Assembly (NCBI GenBank): GCA_035710515.1
Contig: DASTDE010000003.1
Span: 62,001-126,000 of the forward strand
Reading direction: 5' to 3'
Source: Candidatus Rubrimentiphilum sp.
Lineage (GTDB): Bacteria; Vulcanimicrobiota; Vulcanimicrobiia; Vulcanimicrobiales; Vulcanimicrobiaceae
DNA: 64,000 nucleotides
The notes under the pieces are model-generated. The model was not told the origin of the DNA and did no database searches. It saw nothing but the letters and a program-made list of their open reading frames with translations. Each line of letters begins with the position of its first letter. Position 1 is the stretch's first letter. Below are positions 2,682 to 8,048 of this stretch, in pieces. Both the position numbers and the translations under genes were made by a program.

Positions 2682-3509
2682 TCACTTGCAGGCCGCGAGC
2701 CGCGGTTTCGCCACGAGGTTCCCGCGCATCGCCTGCAGATTGCGCATAAGTCGCGCGAACGTTTCAAAATCAAGCGCCTGTTCGGCATCCGACAGCGCCG
2801 TCGGCGGTTCGGGATGCACCTCGACGATCGCGCCGTCGAGCCCGGCGGCAGCCGCGGCCAAAACGAGCGGCTCGATGAGGCTGACGCGCCCCGTCGCGTG
2901 GCTCGGATCGGCGATCACCGGCAGGTGCGTGAGTTCTTTCAAGCGCAGCGCGCCGCCCAGATCGAAGAGATTGCGCGTCTGCGGATCGAAGCCGCGCACG
3001 CCGCGTTCGCAGAGGACGACGTTCGGATTACCCTCGAGCAAGATGTACTCAGCGGCATAAAGCACTTCATCGAGGGTCGCGAAAGGCGCGCGTTTGAGCA
3101 GAATCGGTTTGCCGGTGCGCGCCGCGGCTTGCAGCAGCGTAAAGTTCTGCATGTTCCGCGCGCCGATCTGAATCATGTCTACGTACCACTCCAGCACCAG
3201 CAGTTGCGCTTCCGCGAGCGCTTCCACCACGGCCGGCACGCCGGCCAGCTGGCACGCAGCGGAGATGAGCTTTACGCCTTCTTCGCCCAGACCCTGAAAC
3301 GCGTACGGCGACGTGCGCGGCTTATAGGCCCCGCCGCGAACCATGGCCGCGCCGTGAGCGGTGACGAATTTTGCCGTCAGTTCGATCTGCGCGCGGCTCT
3401 CGATGGCGCATGGTCCCGCGATCATCGTGAAGCCGCCGTCGCCGAAACTGGCGGCGCCGACTCGGACGACCGTCGCGCCCGCTCCCTCTTTTTTCGCTAG
3501 TTTGTACAC
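2682..3509 (-). CDS. aroF: 3-deoxy-7-phosphoheptulonate (DAHP) synthase
   Basis: This enzyme condenses phosphoenolpyruvate and erythrose 4-phosphate, the first step of the shikimate pathway. The 275-residue protein is a type I-beta (AroF/KDO8P-like) barrel. It shows AGPCAIES near residue 32, RGGAYKPRTSPYAFQG near 58, the metal/PEP region with CERGVRGFD, and DPSHATG followed by VEVHPEPPTALSDAEQ. The N-terminal ACT/ferredoxin-like regulatory domain found in some relatives is absent. Control by aromatic amino acids is therefore probably exerted on the transcript, in line with the leader peptide and attenuator immediately upstream (3537-3659). It follows trpE, trpG and a methyltransferase on the same strand. 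Confidence 0.93.
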   Translation of the reverse strand: MYKLAKKEGAGATVVRVGAASFGDGGFTMIAGPCAIESRAQIELTAKFVTAHGAAMVRGGAYKPRTSPYAFQGLGEEGVKLISAACQLAGVPAVVEALAEAQLLVLEWYVDMIQIGARNMQNFTLLQAAARTGKPILLKRAPFATLDEVLYAAEYILLEGNPNVVLCERGVRGFDPQTRNLFDLGGALRLKELTHLPVIADPSHATGRVSLIEPLVLAAAAAGLDGAIVEVHPEPPTALSDAEQALDFETFARLMRNLQAMRGNLVAKPRLAACK

Positions 3510-3536
3510 GTTCTTCCGCCTCTATAGAAAACAAAA

Positions 3537-3561
3537 AAGGCCGCCCGGTAAGGGCGGCCTT
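3537..3561 (-). terminator. Rho-independent attenuator in the aroF leader
   Basis: On the minus strand a perfect 10-bp stem (arms 3552-3561 and 3537-3546, five-base loop) is followed by TTTTTTGTTTT. It lies 33 bases after the stop of the leader peptide and 28 bases before aroF. This is the position expected for the terminator hairpin of a translation-controlled attenuator. Confidence 0.85.
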
Positions 3562-3593
3562 CGAAGTTTGATTCGATCTTCGTTACAGCGCGC

Positions 3594-3659
3594 TCAACTC
3601 ACCGGCACATTCGTGCGGCGATACCACCAGTAGGAATAGCGCGAAGACGAGACCTTCAT
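3594..3659 (-). CDS. Aromatic leader peptide of aroF (21 residues)
   Basis: A 21-codon reading frame (ATG 3659-3657, TGA 3596-3594) encodes a peptide with the run YSYWWY at residues 8-13: three Tyr and two Trp codons out of six. It precedes an intrinsic terminator and then DAHP synthase. This is the architecture of ribosome-mediated attenuation (as in the trp and phe leaders), where stalling at scarce Tyr/Trp codons prevents terminator folding. There is no Shine-Dalgarno; the promoter -10 ends ten bases before the ATG, so the transcript is probably leaderless. The regulatory role is inferred from layout. Confidence 0.8.
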   Translation of the reverse strand: MKVSSSRYSYWWYRRTNVPVS

Positions 3660-3668
3660 GTGAGGGGG

Positions 3669-3698
3669 AGTCTAGCATGGCTAGACCGCCGCTGTCAA
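3669..3698 (-). promoter_or_regulatory. aroF leader promoter with overlapping palindrome
   Basis: Minus strand: TTGACA (3698-3693), an 18-base spacer, and TAGACT (3674-3669). The -35 lies within the last codons of the upstream methyltransferase. The palindrome TCTAGC-ATG-GCTAGA (3671-3685, forward) overlaps the -10 and could be a repressor site in addition to the attenuator. The start of transcription would fall one to three bases before the leader ATG. Confidence 0.65.
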
Positions 3699-4490
3699 TT
3701 TTCGAGCAGTCCCCTTAAAGAACGTGTAGCAGAAGGCACCATCGGCTTCGGCAGTCCGGTTCAGATGGGCTATGCCCCGGTCGAAATCGGCCTCGGTGAT
3801 AAGCCCCGCTCGCAGCGCGGATTGCCGGGCGCCCGCGATCATCGTCTTTCTCGTGAACCCTTCGATCAGGCCGGGTTTGCTGCCGTCAACGTAGACCATC
3901 CGCGGAGAAACGCGCACGTCGTCAAAGCTGGCTTCCGTCAACAGAGGATAGAGCGCCCTGCCGATCAGCGCATTTCCGCCCGCACGGGATTGCAGCTCGA
4001 CAAGGCACCGGATTGCGTCGCGCGCGTACTCGCTATCCGGATGAAAGTATGCGGAACCATGATCGCCTTCGATCGCGGTGATCGTTCCTCCGGGCTTCAA
4101 GACGCGTTTCAGCCCCCTCAGCGCCTCCGCCGGCTTCGCCAAGTGTTCGAGAACGAAGCAAACGAAGACGTGATCGAACGACTCGGCAGAAAACGGCAAA
4201 TCAAGAATATCCGCCTGCCGAAAGGTTACGTTCCCGACGCCCGCCGCCGCAACGGCCTCCTTCGCTTCCGCGATCGATGTTTGCGACAAGTCAATGGAGG
4301 TTATCAACGCCTTCGGACTATGCTTTGCCAGCGGAATCGTTTGTGCGCCGACGCCGCAGCCGGCTTCCAAGACGCTGCTTCCTTCCGGATAAAACGTATC
4401 CGCGTGCAGCAGCTCGACGAGCGTTGCGGCTTGATCTTGCAGCCGGAGGTTTTCTCCCGGCTCGTAGCCGTGGACGTAGGCGCCGGCCAC
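3681..4490 (-). CDS. SAM-dependent class I methyltransferase
   Basis: The product, about 269 residues, is a Rossmann-fold methyltransferase. SAM motif I VLEAGCGVGAQT is near residue 44, the acidic motif TSIDLS follows, then RQADILDLPF and FVCFVLEHLAKP. The C-terminal half resembles ubiE/arsM-type small-molecule methyltransferases. The GTG at 4490 is taken as start, just after the trpG stop (4496); translation upstream of it is out-of-frame trpG sequence. The substrate is unknown. Its place between trpG and aroF could be coincidental or point to modification of an aromatic product. Its last codons contain the -35 of the aroF leader promoter. Confidence 0.8.
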   Translation of the reverse strand: MAGAYVHGYEPGENLRLQDQAATLVELLHADTFYPEGSSVLEAGCGVGAQTIPLAKHSPKALITSIDLSQTSIAEAKEAVAAAGVGNVTFRQADILDLPFSAESFDHVFVCFVLEHLAKPAEALRGLKRVLKPGGTITAIEGDHGSAYFHPDSEYARDAIRCLVELQSRAGGNALIGRALYPLLTEASFDDVRVSPRMVYVDGSKPGLIEGFTRKTMIAGARQSALRAGLITEADFDRGIAHLNRTAEADGAFCYTFFKGTARKLTAAV

Positions 4491-4495
4491 CGGCG

Positions 4496-5065
4496 TTACA
4501 GTCCCAGGGCGTTGCGAACGATGCGGGCGCCGTTCTCGCTGAGCACGGATTCGGGATGGAATTGCACGGCCGTGATGGGAAGCGTCCGGTGCGCGATCGC
4601 TTGGACGACGCCGTCGGAGCTGCGGGCGCAGACCTCCAGCTCGTCCGGCAGCGAACCCGGATCGAGGCAGAGCGAGTGATAACGCGTGGCGTGCAGCGGT
4701 GAGGCGAGACCCTCGAAAAGCGTGCCGCCGCGATGCGTAATAGCCGAGACTTTGCCGTGCATCGGTTCGGGTGCGTGGGTAACCTTCGCGCCAAAAGCTT
4801 CGCCGATGGCTTGCAGGCCGAGACACACGCCGAACACCGGCATCTTCCGTTTCGCCGCATCGCGCACGAGCTGCACGATCTGCGGCGTTTGGCTGGGATT
4901 TCCAGGTCCCGGCCCGATGACCAGCGCGTCGTAACCCTCCAGCAGTTTGGCGTTCAAGCGCGGATCGTCGTTGTGCACGACCTCGGGCATCGCGCCTTGC
5001 TCGGCCAACAGGTGCACGACGTTGTACGTGAACGAATCGAAGTTATCGATGAACAGTATTTTCAT
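4496..5065 (-). CDS. trpG: Anthranilate synthase component II (glutamine amidotransferase)
   Basis: This 189-residue class I amidotransferase supplies ammonia from glutamine to TrpE (and possibly PabB, if shared). It begins MKILFIDNFDSFTYN. The oxyanion/nucleophile motif GVCLGLQAIGE carries the catalytic Cys, GPGPGNPSQT is the TrpG signature, and HPESVLSE carries the His-Glu of the triad. An in-frame ATG at 5125 would add 20 residues derived from a dispersed repeat, so ATG 5065 is preferred. It lies 84 bases downstream of trpE, and that gap is repeat DNA. Confidence 0.95.
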   Translation of the reverse strand: MKILFIDNFDSFTYNVVHLLAEQGAMPEVVHNDDPRLNAKLLEGYDALVIGPGPGNPSQTPQIVQLVRDAAKRKMPVFGVCLGLQAIGEAFGAKVTHAPEPMHGKVSAITHRGGTLFEGLASPLHATRYHSLCLDPGSLPDELEVCARSSDGVVQAIAHRTLPITAVQFHPESVLSENGARIVRNALGL

Positions 5066-5069
5066 TACA

Positions 5070-5160
5070 CTTCGACTCCGCTCAGGGGCCCTTCGCCCTT
5101 CGACGAACTCAGGATGACAAGGCATTTCGCTGAAGGCGAAACGCTACGCTCAGGATGACA
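5070..5160. repeat. Dispersed repeat (CTTCGAC...CTCAGGATGACA family), copies between trpE and trpG
   Basis: Two copies of the CTCAGGATGACA core (ending 5119 and 5160) plus CTTCGACTCCGCTCAG at 5070-5085 fill the trpE-trpG gap. The last copy supplies the final Ser codons and TGA stop of trpE. Translated in the trpG direction, the unit gives the HPEFVEG peptide known from a widespread interspersed repeat family. Six further loci in this window share the core. Confidence 0.75.
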
Positions 5161-6520
5161 CATTGGCGACCTCCGCGTCGCGCTTTGACACGCTCAATAT
5201 GACGCGTGCGATCTCCGTTTTGCTCATGATCTCGTCGTATTCGGCTTCGGGATCGCTGTCGGCAACGATGCCGGCAGAGGCCTGCCAGTGCGCGTTTCCG
5301 CCCTGCACGTGCATGCTGCGCAGCGTAATACACGAATCAAAGTCGCCGCCGTGCGCCCAGCGGCCCACGCTGCCGGCATAAAAGCCGCGCGCGACCGGTT
5401 CGAGCTGGTCGATCAGCTGCATCGCGCGGATCTTCGGCGTTCCGGTGACGGTGCCGGCGGGAAAGCCCGCGGCGAAGAGATCGAGCGCGTCGCACTCCGG
5501 GCGCAAGGTGCCCGTGACGTCCGATACGATGTGCATCACGTGGCTGTAACGCTCCAGCTGCAGCAGTTCGACGACTTTGACCGATCCGAACTCGCAGACC
5601 GCGCCCAGATCGTTCCGTCCCAAATCGACGAGCATCACGTGCTCCGCCCGCTCCTTTTCATTTGAAAGCAATTCGGCGGCGATCGCAAGATCCGCGGACT
5701 CGTCCACGCCGCGGGGCCGCGTGCCCGCCAGCGGCCGGATGCGCGCTTTGCGTCCCTCGAGGCGCACGAGAAATTCCGGCGAGGCTCCGAGCAGTTGACC
5801 GAACGGAGCATCCACGTAAAACATGTACGGCGACGGGTTGCGCGACCGGATCGCGCGATAGAGATCGAATGCCGAACCCTGCAGCGGCGCCGTAAACCGG
5901 ATCCCGAGCTGCAGTTGATAGACCTCGCCGTCCGTGATATTTTCTTTGACTTCACGGGCGCGATCGAGGAACTGCGAACGATCCATCGAGCAGCGTACCG
6001 GTTCGGATCCGCGCACGCCGGCCGGCAGAGCGGGACGCGCGGTTAAGAGCCGTTCGATGTAAGAGTCGATCTTCGCGTCCAGTTCGCTCGCGTCGGATCC
6101 GCACGTCCAGATCGTCAGTTCGTCGCTGAAGTGATCGAAGATAAGCCACGTCGCCGGCAGCGCAACGTATGCCGCGGGCATGGGCGGATCGGCGTCGCCC
6201 CTCGCCGGCAGACGCGCGAACGAACGCGCCGCGTCGTAGGAAAATGCCACCAGTGCGCCGCCGCGGCCGTCGGGATCGTCGATATTCTTGCGATGCTCGT
6301 TTACGAACGACCGGATGTTCGCGAGCATGTTGCCGTCGTCCACAAAGCTGCGCGCGTCGAGATAATCCACGCCCAAGAACGAATAACGCGAGATTCGTCC
6401 GCCGCTTTCAACGCTCTCTAAGAGGCACGCCGCCCCGGGCGCGGCCAAAGCTGCGAGCGCGCCGATCGGCGTCAGGGTGTCGGCCGCGATCGTACGGCTG
6501 CGCGAGGCGAGGGTGGGCAT
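5150..6520 (-). CDS. trpE: Anthranilate synthase component I
   Basis: This 456-residue chorismate-utilising enzyme makes anthranilate from chorismate, the first committed step of tryptophan synthesis. The N-terminal LLESVESGGRISRYSFLG region is the Trp-binding feedback site of TrpE. The C-terminal catalytic domain has SPYMFYVD, GASPEFLVR, RPLAGTRPRG, EHVMLVDLGRNDLG, FPAGTVTGTPKIRAM, and GFYAGSVGRW. The N-terminal Trp-site motif favours TrpE over PabB. The start overlaps the upstream fliJ-like stop (TGATG). The 3' end, including the stop, lies in a dispersed repeat. trpG follows, separated by the same repeat. Confidence 0.93.
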   Translation of the reverse strand: MPTLASRSRTIAADTLTPIGALAALAAPGAACLLESVESGGRISRYSFLGVDYLDARSFVDDGNMLANIRSFVNEHRKNIDDPDGRGGALVAFSYDAARSFARLPARGDADPPMPAAYVALPATWLIFDHFSDELTIWTCGSDASELDAKIDSYIERLLTARPALPAGVRGSEPVRCSMDRSQFLDRAREVKENITDGEVYQLQLGIRFTAPLQGSAFDLYRAIRSRNPSPYMFYVDAPFGQLLGASPEFLVRLEGRKARIRPLAGTRPRGVDESADLAIAAELLSNEKERAEHVMLVDLGRNDLGAVCEFGSVKVVELLQLERYSHVMHIVSDVTGTLRPECDALDLFAAGFPAGTVTGTPKIRAMQLIDQLEPVARGFYAGSVGRWAHGGDFDSCITLRSMHVQGGNAHWQASAGIVADSDPEAEYDEIMSKTEIARVILSVSKRDAEVANVSS

Positions 6521-6906
6521 CAGGCTTGATTGGCTTCGTCGAGTTCGCGTTCTTCCTTGCGGGCCTGGCGGGCGGCAAATTCGGCGAGGCGCCGCTTCTT
6601 CAGCAGCTCAAGCGCCTTGCGATCGCGCATGGCGGGCAGAAGCGCGGCTCTCGCCGCATCTGCTTCATCGGAATATCGCCGCGCGACGGCTCGAAGTTCG
6701 GCGATGCTTCTTTCAAGCTCGGCGATGGTCGCGGCACTATCCGGATCCCAGGCGTTCACGCGCGCGGAAAAATCTGATTCGAGCCGGTTGAGCCGGACTT
6801 GAATTTCATCCAGGCGCCCCTGCGCTCGTGCGAGGATCTGCCGCTTTGCGTTCTCGACGGCGCGCCGCTGTGCGAGCAACGCTTCCAGCGGAAACGTAAA
6901 GCTCAA
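6520..6906 (-). CDS. FliJ-like coiled-coil protein
   Basis: This is a 128-residue, almost wholly helical protein with high charge and heptad-like periodicity. It starts FTFPLEALLAQRRAVENAKRQIL, close to the FliJ signature start (FxLxxLLxxRxxxExxA). FliJ is a flagellar export chaperone and ATPase-stalk protein of about 145 residues. The start is a TTG at 6906, overlapping the purA stop (TTGA); longer readings run into purA in another frame. trpE follows with a TGATG overlap. A generic coiled-coil protein is the alternative. Together with a FliO-like gene and a FliA/WhiG sigma factor it hints at scattered flagellar genes. Confidence 0.55.
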   Translation of the reverse strand: MSFTFPLEALLAQRRAVENAKRQILARAQGRLDEIQVRLNRLESDFSARVNAWDPDSAATIAELERSIAELRAVARRYSDEADAARAALLPAMRDRKALELLKKRRLAEFAARQARKEERELDEANQA

Positions 6907-8048
6907 ACTGCGAGTTGCGAACGTTCCGGGCCGACCGAGACACACTCGATCGGGGCGCCCAAAGCCTCCTCGATACGCTTTACGTAGGCGCCCGCGGCAG
7001 CCGGCAGATCCGCGATGCGGCGCACCTCGGAGAGATCGTCTTGCCAACCGTCCACGTACTCGAAGTCAACCTGCAGATTCGAATCCGTCGCCGACGCGAA
7101 CGTCGCCGGCTTGTTCCCCAGCCGATATGCGGTCGCGATCCCGATGCGCTCGAAACCGCTCAGCACGTCGAGCTTGGTAATGCACGCGCCGGTCAGTCCA
7201 TTCACGCGCGCGGCATATCGCGCTGCCACGGCGTCGAACCATCCGCAGCGCCGCGGGCGCCCGGTGACCGTGCCGAATTCCGCGCCGCCGCTGCGCAATC
7301 GCTCCGCACTTTCGTCGGGCAGTTCCGATGGAAACGGACCGCCGCCGACGCGCGTGGCGTAGGCTTTGACGACGCCGCGCACGCTCTCAATCGCGTTCGG
7401 CCCGACGCCCAAACCGATGCATGCTGCGCCCGCCAGGGTATGCGAGCTGGTGACGTAGGGATAGCTGCCGTAGCCCACGTCCAACAACGTGCCCTGCGCG
7501 CCTTCAGCCAGGACTCGCTGACCGCGCTCGAGCGCGCCGTGGATGTACTCGACGCCGTCAACAACGTGCGCGCGTAACGGCTGCGGAAGTTCGCCGGAGC
7601 GCATGAGAGCGCCGAACGTCACGCCGCTGCGGGCAACTTTGTCGACGTAAGCGGGACCGATTCCGCGCCCGGTGGTACCCAGCGCAGCGCTTCCCCGCGC
7701 TTCTTCCGCCAGCCGGTCGGCCTCGGCGTGACGCGGGAAAACGACGTGCGCGCGGTCGGAGATCTTGATCCGCGTAATGTCCACACCGATCGCTGCCAGC
7801 GCATCGAGCTCCGCGCGCAAACCATCGAGGCTCACGACGGTCCCGCCCCCGATGAAGAGCTCGCAGCGTTCGTTGAGGACGCCCGAAGGAACGATCCGCA
7901 GCGCTAGTTTGGTGTCGCCGACGCGGATCGTGTGCCCCGCGTTGTCGCCGCCGCCGAATCGCGCCACGACGTCGTAATCGCGCGCATAGTAATCGACGAT
8001 CCGGCCCTTTCCCTCATCGCCCCACTGGAGGCCGACGATTACGTCGAT
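6903..8048 (-). CDS. purA: Adenylosuccinate synthetase, compact form with non-canonical start
   Basis: PurA joins IMP and aspartate using GTP, the first AMP-specific step. The GTP loop VGLQWGDEGKGRIVD, then GGGDNAGHTI, GTTGRGIGPAYVDK, EGAQGTLLDV, TSSHTLAGA and RVGGGPFPSEL are all present. The essential GDEGKG loop lies upstream of the first ATG/GTG/TTG (GTG 7967). The frame runs back to a TGA just before 8048, and only ATC codons (8048 or 8039) could start it, so ATC 8048 is used here. At about 381 residues it is roughly 45-50 shorter than usual, missing the helical insert before EGAQGT. It overlaps the GH125 stop. Confidence 0.85.
   Translation of the reverse strand: MDVIVGLQWGDEGKGRIVDYYARDYDVVARFGGGDNAGHTIRVGDTKLALRIVPSGVLNERCELFIGGGTVVSLDGLRAELDALAAIGVDITRIKISDRAHVVFPRHAEADRLAEEARGSAALGTTGRGIGPAYVDKVARSGVTFGALMRSGELPQPLRAHVVDGVEYIHGALERGQRVLAEGAQGTLLDVGYGSYPYVTSSHTLAGAACIGLGVGPNAIESVRGVVKAYATRVGGGPFPSELPDESAERLRSGGAEFGTVTGRPRRCGWFDAVAARYAARVNGLTGACITKLDVLSGFERIGIATAYRLGNKPATFASATDSNLQVDFEYVDGWQDDLSEVRRIADLPAAAGAYVKRIEEALGAPIECVSVGPERSQLAV

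Follow-up and report, generated by a model that had tools for sequence, protein, structure and literature searches.

A putative ribosome-mediated attenuator with a Trp/Tyr-codon leader upstream of aroF in Candidatus Rubrimentiphilum, and similar leaders with other sensor codons

The aroF gene of Candidatus Rubrimentiphilum sp. is preceded by a short open reading frame (ORF) with clustered Tyr and Trp codons and by a terminator, which raises the question whether expression of this gene is controlled by ribosome stalling. The window analyzed here is a stretch of 64,000 nucleotides (contig DASTDE010000003.1) from a genome of 2.54 Mb (G000), the nearest relatives of which are labelled Candidatus Eremiobacterota. 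On its minus strand, trpE for anthranilate synthase component I (5150–6520) and trpG for the anthranilate synthase glutaminase (4496–5125, start codon uncertain) are followed by a methyltransferase-like ORF (3681–4490), the leader and aroF (2682–3509, GTG start at 3509). The trpE-trpG pair is found immediately upstream of the leader and aroF in most relatives, while a methyltransferase-like ORF separates trpG from the leader in the window genome and in L120 and is missing in most others. Small ORFs at 2374–2634 and 6520–7047 flank the trpEG-aroF cluster and resemble flagellar FliO (Pfam match) and FliJ (by eye).

The aroF product is a type I-beta DAHP synthase that consists of the core domain alone (Pfam DAHP_synth_1). 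It aligned nearly end to end with 1vs1 and 1zco (262–276 aa, core-only), which we take to be archaeal enzymes, and with 1rzm, presumably the T. maritima enzyme, only from residue 69 of 1rzm on; the N-terminal domain of 1rzm is therefore missing in the aroF product. Both Pfam and the structure alignments thus bear out the earlier claim that this enzyme has no ACT domain, and no other regulatory domain was detected by them. A second DAHP synthase gene is located elsewhere in the same genome (G000:C2:47866-48642, 52%). In relatives without the window-type aroF (L096–L100, L102, L103, L105 and L110), DAHP synthase matches lie inside open frames of approximately 590–650 aa, in which an ACT-type-looking domain precedes the DAHP synthase match; these frames are perhaps prephenate dehydratase-DAHP synthase fusions.

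Promoter, 21-codon ORF, terminator and aroF were each found on the minus strand where the preliminary description had put them. The −35 element TTGACA (3693–3698) still lies within the methyltransferase ORF, at its 3' end, and is separated by 18 nt from an extended −10 element (TGC-TAGACT, hexamer at 3669–3674); a promoter scan returned this one site, compared to 0.1 expected in shuffled sequences. The gap between the −10 hexamer and the leader ATG is 9 nt and not ten, as had been written. The ORF (3594–3659) starts with the ATG at 3659, encodes MKVSSSRYSYWWYRRTNVPVS in 21 sense codons and ends with a TGA at 3596–3594. Codons 8–13 (3621–3638) specify Tyr-Ser-Tyr-Trp-Trp-Tyr, and among 503 ATG ORFs of 10–40 codons in the window, the leader ORF is the single one that contains at least four Trp or Tyr codons within six. 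In all 22 aroF leaders tested, a −35 element TTGAC(A/G) is present and the −10 hexamer ends 7–10 nt before the ATG, with a mode of 9 nt; the −10 element mostly carries a TGN extension, and a Shine-Dalgarno-like word ahead of the ATG was almost never seen. This spacing agrees with the earlier proposal that the leader cistron is leaderless, which we consider probable; the transcript would then be expected to start no more than about 3 nt from position 3659. The palindrome TCTAG-N5-CTAGA on the −10 element had been suggested as a second regulatory layer. It is present in the window and absent from all other leaders examined: the right half coincides in part with the conserved TGN-TAGACT element, the left half occurs in the window genome only, and the palindrome was consequently rejected as a conserved operator.

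Between the sensor codons and aroF, the RNA can form three mutually exclusive pairings, a three-way switch (1:2, 2:3 and 3:4) that was absent from the preliminary description. Segment 1 (CCGCAC, 3613–3618) pairs with GTG-C-CGG of segment 2 in a protector hairpin. Segment 2 (GTGCCGGTGAG, 3598–3608) overlaps the final leader codons, and its core CCGGTGAG (3605–3598) is complementary to segment 3 (CTTACCGG, 3552–3545), the antiterminator partner that lies within the terminator. The intrinsic terminator itself (GAAGGCCGCCC-TTACC-GGGCGGCCTTT plus T tract, 3530–3562) forms a hairpin from 3562 to 3536 with 11 pairs, of which 8 are G-C, and a 5-nt loop, followed by the T-run. A GCGCGC motif directly after the stop codon (3588–3593) was considered as a free-standing element and rejected; since it paired mostly with the 5' arm of the terminator in the stalled state of our folding model, it is counted as a predicted extension of the antiterminator.

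Comparison of the leaders supports the 2:3 antiterminator helix in several ways. RNAalifold chose it unprompted, and in the alignment three of its pairs have changed on both sides (GC/GU/AU; CG to UA; GC to AU). Among 500 shuffles, 1 reached the observed covariation score, and shifting the partners by 1–3 columns abolished the covariation. In L093, segment 1 (CCACA), segment 2 (CTGGTGAGG) and segment 3 (CCTCACCAG) are altered in concert. When segments 2 and 3 were swapped between leaders, the cognate pairings proved more stable than the non-cognate ones when all leader types were taken together (0 of 20,000 permutations), with a modest effect within the aroF leaders alone (615 of 20,000 permutations, about 3%); part of this complementarity comes cheaply, because segment 3 is rich in CCGG. 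Helix 1:2 showed few two-sided changes, such as CCA/TGG in L093 and AA/TT in L015, and carries little evidence because much of it is invariant. Segment 1 is read in differing frames among the leaders. Likewise, the leaders use several reading frames across CCGGTGAG, where the peptide ends (PVS or WCR before the stop codon, or an internal SAGEA), indicating that at this place the RNA and not the peptide is kept.

In the folding model, the ribosome was represented by an unpairable block, and the RNA was folded with the ribosome absent, stalled at the last sensor codon or positioned at the stop codon. The mean probability of 2:3 pairing in these three states was 0.18, 0.72 and 0.04 for 22 aroF leaders, and 0.02, 0.88 and 0.00 for the window leader. 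The resulting switch score of 0.54 compares to 0.02 (sd 0.10) for leaders shuffled between sensor codons and terminator, and L004, L005 and L013 switched weakly. At equilibrium, the full-length RNA preferred terminator formation also when the ribosome was stalled (mean 0.86), so that the switch would need co-transcriptional kinetics.

A first look at relatives yielded 23 distinct leader sequences, including that of the window. A search by tblastn and a covariance model in a set of 60 genomes detected the leader in 16 of 16 sampled genomes that carry the same aroF clade and no aroF-type leader in 21 other sampled genomes of the family. Overall, the covariance model found aroF-type leaders in 32 genomes from 13 genera of the family, and 31 of these 32 matches lie directly before aroF, the remaining one ending at a contig edge after trpEG. 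A phylum-wide search with Infernal's stricter filters did not find any leader outside the family. The 13 genera retain the Trp codons, the leaderless promoter spacing and also the terminator, and the leader peptide is constrained in the sensor run alone. This run reads YSYWWY in the window genus and SYSYWWQ, LWWWL, SWWWR/H, AWWWP/Q, RWWWH, AWWCW, NYWYWYY, GYWYWY or AYWYWF, among others, elsewhere. Where aroF adjoins trpEG, the run consists mostly of Trp codons; in the window genus, as in one other (L007, L010 and L011), it combines Tyr and Trp codons. Most leaders away from trpEG have alternating Tyr, Trp and Phe codons. The comparison across relatives that had been proposed as a check, for conserved sensor codons together with antiterminator pairing, is the strongest test of the observation and was positive. 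The earlier statement that the switch senses Tyr and Trp supply stands for Trp, of which every aroF leader examined contains at least two codons, but gives too much weight to Tyr, because Tyr and Phe come and go between lineages.

Based on promoter spacing, ORF, codon run, terminator, pairings and cross-genus conservation, all of which can be read computationally from the genomes, we consider it highly likely (probability of roughly 0.88) that the element is a classical trp-type ribosome-mediated transcription attenuator of aroF. Conserved codons, compensatory changes, swap tests and folding together support the ribosome stalling that had been postulated for this gene. For transcript start, stalling, read-through and the identity of the sensed tRNA, we infer the following sequence of events. 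Transcription would begin at the leader ATG or within about 3 nt of it, and the ribosome would start on the near-5'-terminal AUG without a Shine-Dalgarno site. Under a shortage of Trp-tRNA, and in the window genus perhaps also of Tyr-tRNA, the ribosome would stall at codons 8–13 and cover segment 1, leaving segment 2 free to pair with segment 3, which forms the terminator's 5' arm and loop, and RNA polymerase would read through into aroF. With plentiful charged tRNA, the ribosome would reach the stop codon in segment 2 and mask this segment, thereby permitting terminator formation. If the leader is not translated, segments 1 and 2 would pair and the terminator would form as well. As the aroF-encoded DAHP synthase has no feedback domain, this isoenzyme may be controlled mainly through the switch.

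Other explanations of the same region have to be weighed against this reading. The element might act as an attenuator within the 5'-UTR of a longer transcript that starts upstream, for example by read-through from trpEG, with the leader ORF translated by internal initiation. The direct upstream position of trpE-trpG in most relatives makes it probable that such read-through transcripts exist; yet the near-consensus promoter at a fixed distance from the ATG occurs in 22 of 22 aroF leaders, including those without adjoining trpEG, and the near absence of Shine-Dalgarno-like words speaks against internal initiation, so that we regard this arrangement as improbable. A very improbable explanation is that a constitutive terminator merely follows a small protein gene and that the YSYWWY peptide, for instance as a small membrane or trans-acting peptide, is itself the functional product. 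Conservation of the leader ORF within the genus would agree with this, and in Sinorhizobium meliloti both the terminated attenuator RNA of trpL and its peptide act in trans (PMC7298713). Nevertheless, the peptide is not conserved beyond its Trp/Tyr core, its C-terminus varies in frame while the RNA motif is kept, and the sensor codons become Pro codons where the downstream gene is proC.

A ligand-binding RNA or a protein sensor, such as a riboswitch or a TRAP-like system, with an incidental codon run is extremely improbable. Many aromatic operons in other phyla are under protein or T-box control, but here the codon run fits the downstream pathway every time, with Trp for aroF and trpE and Pro for proC. 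In addition, no conserved aptamer-like core is present, and sequence and length of the spacer vary freely. The Rfam search likewise returned no family at gathering score: the nearest relevant families were Phe_leader and Trp_leader, and the window reached 24.5 bits for Trp_leader (RF00513), below the gathering threshold of 41.

The preferred reading, a trp-type attenuator of aroF, has precedents in other bacteria. The preliminary description knew of no such arrangement for aroF in this kind of organism, but in Corynebacterium glutamicum the aroR leader peptide with Phe-Tyr-Phe is already described upstream of aroF (Neshat et al., 2014, as covered in PMC4046766 and PMC11802643). Compared by function and position, both systems are leader-peptide attenuators with aromatic codons before a DAHP synthase gene; they differ in that aroR shows Phe dependence, whereas the window leader is Trp-first and belongs to another phylum. 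With E. coli trpL, the window leader shares the exclusive pairings 1:2, 2:3 and 3:4 and the Trp codons just before segment 1, but it precedes aroF instead of trpE and is apparently leaderless. Leaderless leader ORFs are known from S. meliloti trpL (PMC7298713), from trpL, leuL, ilvL and thrL of Streptomyces lividans (PMC8079986) and from mycobacteria, where leaderless polycysteine ORFs act as cysteine-responsive attenuators (Canestrari, 2020, cited in PMC9031893). In all of them, the cistron is located at or near the 5' end of the transcript and has no Shine-Dalgarno site; the leaderless start was measured in those organisms, whereas in the window it is deduced from promoter spacing, and the target genes differ. 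A survey of Actinobacteria described elements for trp and cys genes and for the branched-chain genes leu and ilv, together with T-boxes for ileS (PMC1262725). These include leader peptides with cognate codons and classical attenuators for trp, as in the family studied here, but the survey has no element for a Phe or Tyr operon and does not mention proline, unlike the elements on aroF and proC found here.

In the family, a covariance model trained exclusively on aroF leaders returned 39 matches at E ≤ 0.01. Of these, 32 were aroF-type leaders and five preceded proC, with a single further match upstream of trpE and another upstream of an SsuA-like gene. The identity of proC was confirmed by NCBIfam TIGR00112. 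Pro-codon-rich, leaderless-looking leaders with antiterminator and terminator were found upstream of proC in several genera (L219, L221, L223, L228–L233 and L235–L241; for example MKTLFAFPCPPQPHQEMPVR, MTYRASRPLPPPPHHEMPVR and MMLHSLPPCPPTPPQRVPAG), and most have the promoter spacing of the aroF leaders. In the folding model, the probability of 2:3 pairing in 13 proC leaders was 0.07 without ribosome, 0.75 with a stalled ribosome and 0.00 with the ribosome at the stop codon, pointing to a possible attenuation of proline biosynthesis, which might depend on EF-P due to the polyproline runs. In the window genus, no proC above the TIGR00112 cut-off was detected. Trp-codon leaders with terminators are located directly before trpE in two other genera (L199:527-639, MQFFAASWWRPADRNNR; L146:2251-2370, reverse, MRLVLSWWWQVSVRSGR). 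A trpE leader in the window genome was rejected, as the upstream gene runs into trpE and no leader is visible. In L147 (2221–2336, reverse), a Cys-rich leader ending in SSCMSMCCTSRCR, with the CCGGTGAG motif and a terminator, precedes the gene for an ABC substrate-binding protein, which was labelled SsuA-like by eye only; the Cys version would perhaps control a sulfonate-type transporter. Using a model of the 3' module of the leader (R2), no second clear cassette member was found in the window genome. R2 matches weaker than about E = 1e-4 were inspected individually and, except for those at proC and trpE leaders, discarded, since most of them fell within genes or on simple terminators.

The 3' module that these leaders have in common points to one cassette in which the codons were exchanged, although convergence on a good design is possible. 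We lean slightly towards the view that the window element belongs to a family of mobile or duplicated attenuator cassettes that were re-coded between operons and now carry Trp/Tyr codons at aroF, Trp codons at trpE, Pro codons at proC and perhaps Cys codons at the gene of a sulfonate-type transporter. Besides its leaderless promoter and its terminator, such a cassette would have sensor codons that can be exchanged and an antiterminator half in which CCGGT stays constant, with GCGCGC where the peptide ends. If this is true, the proC version would represent leader-peptide attenuation of proline biosynthesis through Pro codons.

Attenuation of aroF and leaderless leader ORFs are both known already. 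The new aspects are the phylum, the sensing of Trp and Tyr on aroF and the unexpected occurrence of homologous-looking cassettes before proC, trpE and probably a sulfonate-type transporter; the cassette with swapped codons, above all the proC version, is a more novel lead than the window element itself. In open-access papers, we found no report of attenuation in Eremiobacterota and none of a Pro-codon attenuator of proline biosynthesis or proC. The putative aroF switch would extend classical leader-peptide attenuation to a phylum for which we found no earlier report and link it with a DAHP synthase from which the usual feedback domain is absent. Together, the leaders form a natural series, with one RNA switch combined with various sensor codons before various amino acid genes. 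This series suggests control of proC by Pro codons and makes the origin and re-targeting of attenuators directly testable.
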